Shown one piece after another: positions 12,740-15,515 of a stretch of 64,000 nt of DNA. The translations under genes and the position numbers were made by a program. Within the stretch, counting starts at the first letter, position 1; every line of letters begins with the position of its first letter. The notes under the pieces were generated by a model. It was not told the origin of the DNA and searched no databases. It saw only the letters and a list, made by a program, of their open reading frames with translations. This stretch comes from Arcobacter sp. CECT 8985 (lineage in GTDB: Bacteria > Campylobacterota > Campylobacteria > Campylobacterales > Arcobacteraceae): positions 62,001 through 126,000 of the forward strand of contig NZ_PDKC01000001.1 in NCBI RefSeq assembly GCF_004116495.1, given 5' to 3'.

Positions 12740-13165
12740 TTAATCTATTTTCTCATTACCACCTAAAGAAGTATATAAATTTACTCTATTTATTAACTCA
12801 TTTAGTTTTGTGCATTAAGCTGTTTAGTAGTATTTGCTCTTACACTCAATGCATCAGATACATCTTTAAATGCAGACTGTATAGTTTTTTCATATTGAGC
12901 AAGAGCTTGTAAATATGCAGCTTTTATATTATCTACATCTTGTTGTGATACTACATTGAATTTTAAAGATTTTTCATATTTTTGGCGCTTTAATTTAAGT
13001 GTTATTAAATTTGCTTCTGAACTTTTTAATGTTGCTAAAGCTTCATCATAAACAGCTTGATAAGAGTCTGGATCAAACATCACCTTTATTTACATAATGT
13101 CTCTCTTTGAAAAGTTGTTTTTTATAATACCATCAATTTGTGGTCTAACTTCAGATTTGTAAATA
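12740..13165 (-). pseudogene. Fused remnant of an RND efflux operon: AcrA-like fragment joined to OprM-like tail
   Basis: Read on the minus strand, the right part codes for AcrA-type periplasmic adaptor sequence: SEVRPQIDGIIKNNF, then, after frameshifts near 13090-13120, IDPDSYQAVYDEA-like and KLKRQKYEKSLKFNVVSQQDVDNIKAAYLQA. It changes without a break to OprM/NodT outer-membrane factor tail sequence LAQYEKTIQSAFKDVSDALS, and after another frameshift LNELINRVNLYTSLGGN ends at 12740. The inner-membrane pump gene acrB expected between them is missing, so one internal deletion fused the two ends and the rest decayed. Only 12802-13083 is open, which is too little for a working protein. Confidence 0.8.
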
Positions 13166-13327
13166 GCTTTGGATTTAATTGATACGAATACTGATGAAGG
13201 TAAAAAATTAAGATTGGCTTTTTTATTTTCTGAAGCAATGTTTACTGCTATGACTTTAAACTATGTCAAGTTATCACAAAAAGAACAAAAAGAGATTTTT
13301 GAAGATTTAAAAACTTTTCTATTATAA
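13163..13327 (+). pseudogene. C-terminal remnant of a TetR/AcrR-type regulator
   Basis: The plus-strand frame entering after a stop at 13160 reads DLIDTNTDEGKKLRLAFLFSEAM..., ending SQKEQKEIFEDLKTFLL. This resembles the last 50 residues of a TetR-family repressor. The DNA-binding N-terminus is absent. Its position divergent to the AcrA-like remnant matches the usual acrR-acrAB layout, which supports the identification although the tail alone is weakly conserved. Confidence 0.55.
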
Positions 13328-13350
13328 AAATAGTCTTCACATTAAAAAAT

Positions 13351-13380
13351 TTCTGTTTCTTTAAAAAAAGTAACAGAAAA
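13351..13380. terminator. Hairpin between the regulator remnant and the 68-aa gene
   Basis: TTTCTGTT and AACAGAAA arms, with further CTTT/AAAG pairing, enclose an A-rich loop. It could terminate either converging unit. Confidence 0.45.
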
Positions 13381-13599: not shown

Positions 13600-13782
13600 T
13601 TTTAATCCTAAAATTTTATTAGATTATTATTTAAAATCAAGCTATTCTTAATCTTAAAACTTTGAAATAATAGTTATATATATATTAATAAATGCTTATA
13701 TGAAAAAAGAAACAAATAACTGCATAAACTAATAATCATATTGATTCATAAAATAAAACTTAATATATTAGAATAAGCACAT

Positions 13783-14136
13783 TTAGCTGTGATTATTATA
13801 TTCTAAAACACTTTTTAAGATAAAATAATGACATGCCATTCTATATTCATTTGATGTGTATATAACTCTTATATTTAGACTACAGTTATCACATCTAAAA
13901 TCTAAGAAATCTTCCCATTTTATTTTATCAATAGGACGAACTAAATCGAACTTTTTAATTACAATATCTTCTAAGCAACTATTTGTTTTAAATAAACTTC
14001 TTGCAAATTCATTTTCATAAAATGTTCTTTTAGTTAAACAATCTGGACATGTATAGGTTGTCTTAACTTCATCTTTTCCTGCACCAAAGATATTTGAACT
14101 AAACCTTTTTTGAGGATCTAAAACTAAAGCTTTCAT
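13783..14136 (-). CDS. Hypothetical protein with two CxxC motifs (zinc-ribbon-like)
   Basis: Not recognised. It has 117 residues. TCPDCLTK near residue 29 and FRCDNCSL near residue 80 place two CxxC pairs about 50 residues apart, as expected for a split zinc ribbon. No membrane segment or signal. Monocistronic, with a 47-bp gap to the rhodanese gene upstream of it. Confidence 0.5.
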   Translation of the reverse strand: MKALVLDPQKRFSSNIFGAGKDEVKTTYTCPDCLTKRTFYENEFARSLFKTNSCLEDIVIKKFDLVRPIDKIKWEDFLDFRCDNCSLNIRVIYTSNEYRMACHYFILKSVLEYNNHS

Positions 14137-14183
14137 AAAATCACCTATTATTTATTTGTTTTCTATTTTGTATTTTTAAACAC

Positions 14184-14534
14184 TTATTTTAACTTTAAAA
14201 GAGAGTTCCACTTACCTGCGTTATGTACATTTTCAAAGCCATTTTTGATTAAAACCCTTTTAGCAAATGCACTTCTACTCCCACTAGCACAACAAACAAT
14301 TATAGGTTTATTTTTATCTAATTCATTAATTTTATTTTTAAGTGATGCTAGTGGAATATTAATACTTCCTTGTTTATGAGCCAATGCAAACTCGCTTTCT
14401 GTTCTAACATCAATAATCTGCCCACCCTGCTCTAAAAGAGATGGTGCAAGCTTTAATACCTTATAATAAGTATATTTTTTATAAATTAAAAAAGCTATTA
14501 TTATTATAATAGGATATATCATAATTTCATTCAT
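14184..14534 (-). CDS. Membrane-anchored rhodanese-like protein
   Basis: A 116-residue protein with an N-terminal hydrophobic anchor (IMIYPIIIIIAFLIYKK) followed by a single rhodanese domain. GGQIIDVRTESEFALAHKQGSINIPL is the conserved entry segment, and the active-site loop VCCASGSRSA holds the persulfide-forming Cys. Single-domain rhodaneses carry sulfur from thiosulfate or polysulfide, and the anchor puts it at the membrane. A role alongside the sulfur transporter and Psr enzyme of this window is possible but not shown. Confidence 0.8.
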   Translation of the reverse strand: MNEIMIYPIIIIIAFLIYKKYTYYKVLKLAPSLLEQGGQIIDVRTESEFALAHKQGSINIPLASLKNKINELDKNKPIIVCCASGSRSAFAKRVLIKNGFENVHNAGKWNSLLKLK

Positions 14535-14618
14535 AAATTTTCCTAATTAAATTTTTTGAAACTAGATTATATCCATTTGAGTTTAATTTCTACTCTATTT
14601 TTATCTATTCTTATATTA

Positions 14619-14972
14619 TCAATTATCACCGTTTTGATTTTGCTGTGCTATATAGTCATATTTTAAGCAATTTTCACATTTTTTAATATCTTCATAATCT
14701 ATTGTAGTTAATTCTAAGTCTTTAAACTCTTCTTTAATAATTTTGATTGCTTCTTCATCAGCTGAATAAATTATTGATTTTCCATCAATGTTACCAGATA
14801 CTATTTTTTCTGTTTTTGCAAGAACTTTTTTTAAGTTATCTTCCCAATAATTAAGAAGCTTTTCGTTATCTTCTAATTCTTCAGAACGAATATCCCAGTA
14901 AAGACATAAGTCAGGTAAAAAACCACATGTTCTTTTATCGTAAAAGTCTATTGTTATTCCCTTAAGTTTCAT
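14619..14972 (-). CDS. Hypothetical cytosolic protein
   Basis: Not recognised. It has 117 residues, is acidic, with Cys residues near the start (KRTCGFLPDLCLYW) and a CENC motif near the end, so a metal site built from both ends is possible. A good AAGGAG-like site precedes the ATG. Faces the DUF3144 gene across a 113-bp divergent promoter region. Confidence 0.5.
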   Translation of the reverse strand: MKLKGITIDFYDKRTCGFLPDLCLYWDIRSEELEDNEKLLNYWEDNLKKVLAKTEKIVSGNIDGKSIIYSADEEAIKIIKEEFKDLELTTIDYEDIKKCENCLKYDYIAQQNQNGDN

Positions 14973-15085
14973 TTTAAACTCCTTTTTATTATTAAAAAAA
15001 TTTTCCTTTTATACTTAAATTATAAGATATTAAAACTAAAATAGAAGTTGTTTTTTAATATAATGTAAAAAAGCAAGGAGTCATA

Positions 15086-15367
15086 ATGAATAATAATCAA
15101 TTTTTAATGAGAGCAGATGAGCATATTGAATTGGCAAACAGTCAATTAAGTGAGACAACAACACAAGGGGAAGTAAGTGCTTCATTGATGTATGCAGCTG
15201 CAAGATTTAATGCATGGATGGCTTCAACATCATTTGAATCAGCAGAAGCAATGAAAGAAGAAAAAGAAAAAATTATAGAGTATTTTATAAAAGAGTATAA
15301 AATAGCGTTAGCTGAAAATATAGATAATCATATAGAAAACTATGACTTTAGCCAAAATGATGTATAA
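15086..15367 (+). CDS. DUF3144 family protein
   Basis: A 93-residue helical protein. FLMRADEHIELANSQL and the strongly conserved VSASLMYAAARFNAWMAS match DUF3144. Function unknown. AAGGAG lies 7 nt before the ATG. It is the last plus-strand gene before the minus-strand cassette-like run that starts at 15.5 kb. Confidence 0.75.
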   Translation: MNNNQFLMRADEHIELANSQLSETTTQGEVSASLMYAAARFNAWMASTSFESAEAMKEEKEKIIEYFIKEYKIALAENIDNHIENYDFSQNDV

Positions 15368-15515
15368 AAAAAGAAGCTATTATATAAGTGAATAAAACAT
15401 AGTTTCATTCTAATTAAACTTCTAGTAAACCAAAGTATATTCATTTGAAAAAAAGAAAGTGAAGATTCATCCTTAGAAATGATTTTATTTTTTTACATTT
15501 GATATTATTTTTTAA

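Follow-up and report, generated by a model that had tools for sequence, protein, structure and literature searches.

Related efflux operons and the intact copy in a sister genome

Tripartite efflux systems of the RND type have been described in the bacterial family that includes the source of our window, which is the whole 64,000-nucleotide stretch analysed here (G000:C11:62001-126000, Arcobacter sp. CECT 8985). In Aliarcobacter butzleri, knock-outs of AreABC, AreDEF and AreGHI have been shown to affect drug susceptibility (PMC8300790). We liken these systems to the present locus by type of system and not by homology. Operons with the same tetR, adaptor, permease and outer-membrane gene order as the locus are found in Aliarcobacter vitoriensis (L048) and on the 162-kb A. 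cryaerophilus plasmid pCNAC48 (NZ_CP099557.1, L142). The plasmid copy is annotated as RND efflux and adjoins a transposase gene; optrA and aph(3')-IIIa are both predicted nearby. Both operons differ from the locus in the window in being intact and in their genomic surroundings, and neither has a MATE gene directly beside tetR.

The sister genome G003 carries an intact tetR, adaptor, RND pump and outer-membrane-factor operon (L035:6423-12738) with the same neighbours as the locus in the window. It consists of a tetR gene on the minus strand (L035:6423-6962; Pfam TetR_N above the cut-off and TetR_C_28 below it), followed on the plus strand by genes for an adaptor of 385 aa (L035:7066-8223), an RND pump of 1045 aa (L035:8220-11357; ACR_tran, 1160 bits) and an outer-membrane factor of 462 aa (L035:11350-12738). 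A MATE pump gene adjoins it (L035:5078-6403, plus strand). The MATE, adaptor and outer-membrane-factor genes are likewise intact and recognized by Pfam. When the six genomes of the genus were searched with the DNA of the locus, the strong matches outside the source genome (G000) came from G003 alone, as four separate pieces over about 6.3 kb; among the other matches listed for the genus, none was long or strong. An intact acrR-acrAB-oprM locus of a related strain, which the initial annotation had proposed for comparison, is thus present at the same chromosomal place.

The flanking genes of the two genomes correspond at the DNA level, with identities of 88.8% for a methyltransferase gene, 84.6% for a 206-aa gene, 87.0% for a 161-aa gene, 93.8% for a 117-aa gene and 96.1% for a 93-aa gene. 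Several small genes on the tetR side differ. The window is variable at 13762-15416, where it has a rhodanese gene and a 117-aa gene (14184-14972) and G003 has other small genes. In the other four members of the genus, the 117-aa flank gene is absent and the methyltransferase gene has no strong match, so synteny is not usable there.

Pieces and junctions of the remnant

Pieces of three efflux-operon genes lie in the window within 590 bp: the tail of a TetR regulator on the plus strand, and an adaptor piece and an OprM-like piece on the minus strand. They had been named from the letters alone, and the DNA identities to G003 confirm them. Their order and strands are still the original ones, they occupy the place where G003 has its intact copy, and their DNA is 84-90% identical to it; unlike the locus in the window, the G003 operon is complete and has the MATE gene adjoining.

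The tetR piece (13169-13327, plus strand) holds the last ~52 codons and the stop of a TetR/AcrR-family regulator and is 87% identical over 166 bp to L035:6419-6584, the 3' end of the intact tetR. Its best Pfam match is TetR_C_28, at only E=0.029; Pfam by itself would have missed the remnant. The adaptor piece (AcrA/MFP-like; 12905-13170, minus strand) covers codons ~59-160 of 385 and is 84% identical to L035:7236-7537 (302 aligned columns, E about 1e-90). The locus had been described as an AcrA-like head fused to an OprM-like tail; the fusion is real, and the adaptor part is internal and not a head. Two gaps interrupt it, of 1 nt near 13117 and of 11 nt near 13074, and a TAA stop stands between these two frameshifts. 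The OprM-like sequence, correctly recognized as the end of an outer-membrane factor, itself holds a further deletion of 136 bp. Its first part (12806-12907, minus strand) comprises codons ~366-396 of 462 and is 89% identical to L035:12435-12535. The second (12740-12806, minus strand; up to about 12811 with the shared bases of the junction) runs through the final ~21 codons to the stop and is 90% identical to L035:12672-12738 and 97% identical to G037 and G038. Against G003, the OprM-like pieces align at 79% over 159 columns, and an adjoining alignment gives 85% over 105 columns.

Nothing is left at 12905-12907 of the gene for the RND pump, an ACR_tran protein of about 1000 aa, and about 100 of the 385 adaptor codons and about 50 of the 462 outer-membrane-factor codons are left. 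Judged from the sequence, the locus is almost certainly what is left of a tripartite RND efflux operon under TetR control and no longer functions. Of the 6320 matching G003 bases, 592 survive in the window, about a tenth, and the 5728 missing bases are accounted for exactly (6320 - 657 - 4923 - 136 - 11 - 1 = 592).

A single join had been thought to remove the pump and most of its partners. The pump gene is indeed gone, and there are at least three large deletions. At the first junction (J1, 13166-13170), tetR codon ~128 now abuts adaptor codon ~58 after a deletion of 657 bp, counted on G003, with AAAGC shared on the minus strand. At the second (J2, 12905-12907), a deletion of 4923 bp took the remainder of the adaptor, all of the pump gene and most of oprM, so that the adaptor now runs into oprM at codon ~363, with AGC shared. 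At the third (J3, 12806-12811), the 136-bp deletion within oprM shares ACAAAA on the minus strand. Short direct repeats at the deletion ends, which the initial annotation had proposed to look for, amount to 5, 3 and 6 exactly shared bases. With random breakpoints drawn within 300 bases in the G003 sequence (100,000 draws per junction), the chance of at least that many shared bases is 0.0154, 0.094 and 0.0035, respectively. The shared bases exceed chance at J1 and J3; those at J2 are not significant alone, and the repeat there is weak in G003 (3 bases). A by-eye reading of the aligned relatives suggests that the ends of J2 may lie in an imperfect 10-base repeat (12898-12907, AGCTNTTGCT), and no single genome among the compared relatives shows the whole of it.

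We infer that the operon already stood at this site in the ancestor that G000 shares with G003. In the window lineage it would then have been reduced by the three large deletions, for which slippage or end-joining at short direct repeats is the probable mechanism, and by the two small ones of 11 and 1 nt. G003 is an imperfect stand-in for this ancestor because the oprM piece of the window is nearer to G037 and G038 (bootstrap 80 on 157 columns).

The source is a draft assembly of 2.79 Mb in 82 contigs, which could in principle mean that reads were misjoined and that the strain has an intact operon. Such an artefact is highly improbable. The genome is 99.96% complete, and the best near-full-length adaptor match elsewhere in it is 31% identical, so that no close full-length adaptor is found; moreover, one misjoin cannot give three junctions, two small gaps and a divergence of 10-16% from G003. 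The locus lies inside a contig of 251,836 bp. A replacement copy of the operon was also sought elsewhere in the genome; none is close, the best candidate being that same adaptor.

The fused frame and coding constraint

The big deletion placed the adaptor piece in frame with the OprM piece, and the join NIKAAYLQA / LAQYEKTIQSAFK is found where the initial annotation had put it. It lies in a chance open frame of 93 aa (12802-13083, minus strand) that starts with GTG and spans J2 and J3. Among 104 genomes of the family, 35 match this frame, and only the window's own match covers the full residues 1-93. No listed match in the other 34 genomes extends beyond residues 2-82 in adaptor genes or 48-92 in outer-membrane-factor genes; these genes are full-length, and none is matched over the whole frame. 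In a collection of contigs from species genomes, none of the best 80 of 196 confirmed relatives covered both ends. An intact homologue with the same fused architecture, which would have made the frame a real short gene, was thus absent from the 104 family genomes and from the 80 kept loci of the 196, and a conserved short fused gene was dropped as a candidate.

The frame has stayed open across two deletion junctions, as it might if it encoded a genuine small protein, such as a coiled-coil decoy binding to partners of the pump. We give this idea next to no credence. Apart from the missing counterparts, the frame begins within the adaptor and has no visible signal sequence, it contains no relevant Pfam domain, and the changes in its adaptor part fall mostly at first and second codon positions. 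Under the reading as a remnant, the frame would be open only because the big deletion chanced to be in frame and no stop has been gained yet.

The distribution of changes over codon positions differs between the pieces. Between window and G003, the differences in the adaptor piece are spread evenly, with 12, 7 and 10 at positions 1, 2 and 3. When the same stretch of G003 is compared with intact relatives, the counts are 9/7/26 for G037, 14/8/25 for A. vitoriensis and 4/3/9 for G068. Against nine intact relatives, the changes found only in the window number 5, 3 and 2. These counts show that the adaptor piece has lost coding constraint. The tetR tail (7/2/12) and the oprM end (0/1/6) keep a coding-like excess at the third position relative to G003. 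Frame breaks together with a lost codon bias were seen in the adaptor piece only, the other two being too short or still biased. The short tetR and oprM pieces do not themselves show decay, and much of the divergence may predate the loss. Frameshifts had been cited as signs of later decay; the frameshifts and the lost constraint are there, and "later" is unsupported, as the order of events cannot be told.

Probable cassette movement in the family and meaning of the remnant

The MATE gene of G003 is absent from the window. Such a gene stands beside tetR in G003 and G068 and is lacking there in L139, in A. vitoriensis and on pCNAC48, so both a loss in the window lineage and a gain in G003 are possible. 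The window sequence at about 13332-13376 has no clear counterpart. A terminator-like hairpin (13349-13380) lies there, just past the tetR tail; the corresponding position in G003 showed none.

G003 and G068 belong to two genera, and their MATE-tetR-acrAB-oprM cassettes (L035:5053-12738 and L138:6927-14638) share 94% DNA identity over 7.7 kb; the match ends sharply, the flanks differ, and the adaptor proteins are 97% identical. This likeness points to a recent horizontal transfer. The G037 cassette is 90% identical to that of G003 over the tetR-oprM part. The A. vitoriensis cassette is homologous, and in the tetR and adaptor pieces G036, a genome of the window's family, has match figures equal to those of A. 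vitoriensis; these matches point to Arcobacteraceae as that family. Horizontal movement is suggested by the cassettes that lie intact on the A. cryaerophilus plasmid and in other genera. Natural transformation, which has been reported for A. butzleri (PMC8308473), is a plausible route within the family.

The tetR and acrA fragments group the window with G003 and G068 (split support 100), and the oprM fragments group it with G037 and G038 (support 80). Because the fragments group the window differently, recombination among cassettes is likely, and the G003 copy need not be an unchanged ancestor. Movement between genera and the closeness of the oprM part to G037 and G038 would also fit a defective cassette that arrived already broken, with no decay in place. 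That is unlikely, since the site and its neighbours match those of the intact copy in G003 and a search of the family's other 103 genomes gave no second copy of the fusion. We tentatively entertain the possibility that the site is a trading post of a mobile efflux cassette: an older, ancestral copy, perhaps without MATE, would have decayed in the window lineage, recombination with a G068-like copy bearing MATE would have overwritten it in G003, and the remnant would be a fossil of the older cassette.

Another RND pump, in the source genome (G000:C31:15935-19131, L140) and at L139:1789-4988, is encoded by two half-size genes of 518 and 547 aa. Their stop and start overlap in TAATG, and a ribosome-binding-like AGAGG lies ahead. 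By hand count, the first half occurs as its own frame of ~509-550 aa in 85 of the 104 family genomes; the second follows it directly in five of the six genus genomes. From its sequence, this arrangement looks like a conserved split pump and not decay, and our literature search on split RND pumps returned nothing relevant.

In substance, the initial annotation's reading of the locus holds. Among the papers on Arcobacteraceae efflux that our literature search returned, we found no description of the remnant. It is an ordinary pseudogene and operon scar, very clearly readable, and no new system. For annotation pipelines it is a caution, as there is no RND adaptor or short gene to call at this place. 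For the family, it is a clean, base-for-base example of a horizontally moving efflux operon that was lost again, through three short-repeat deletions and two small gaps.
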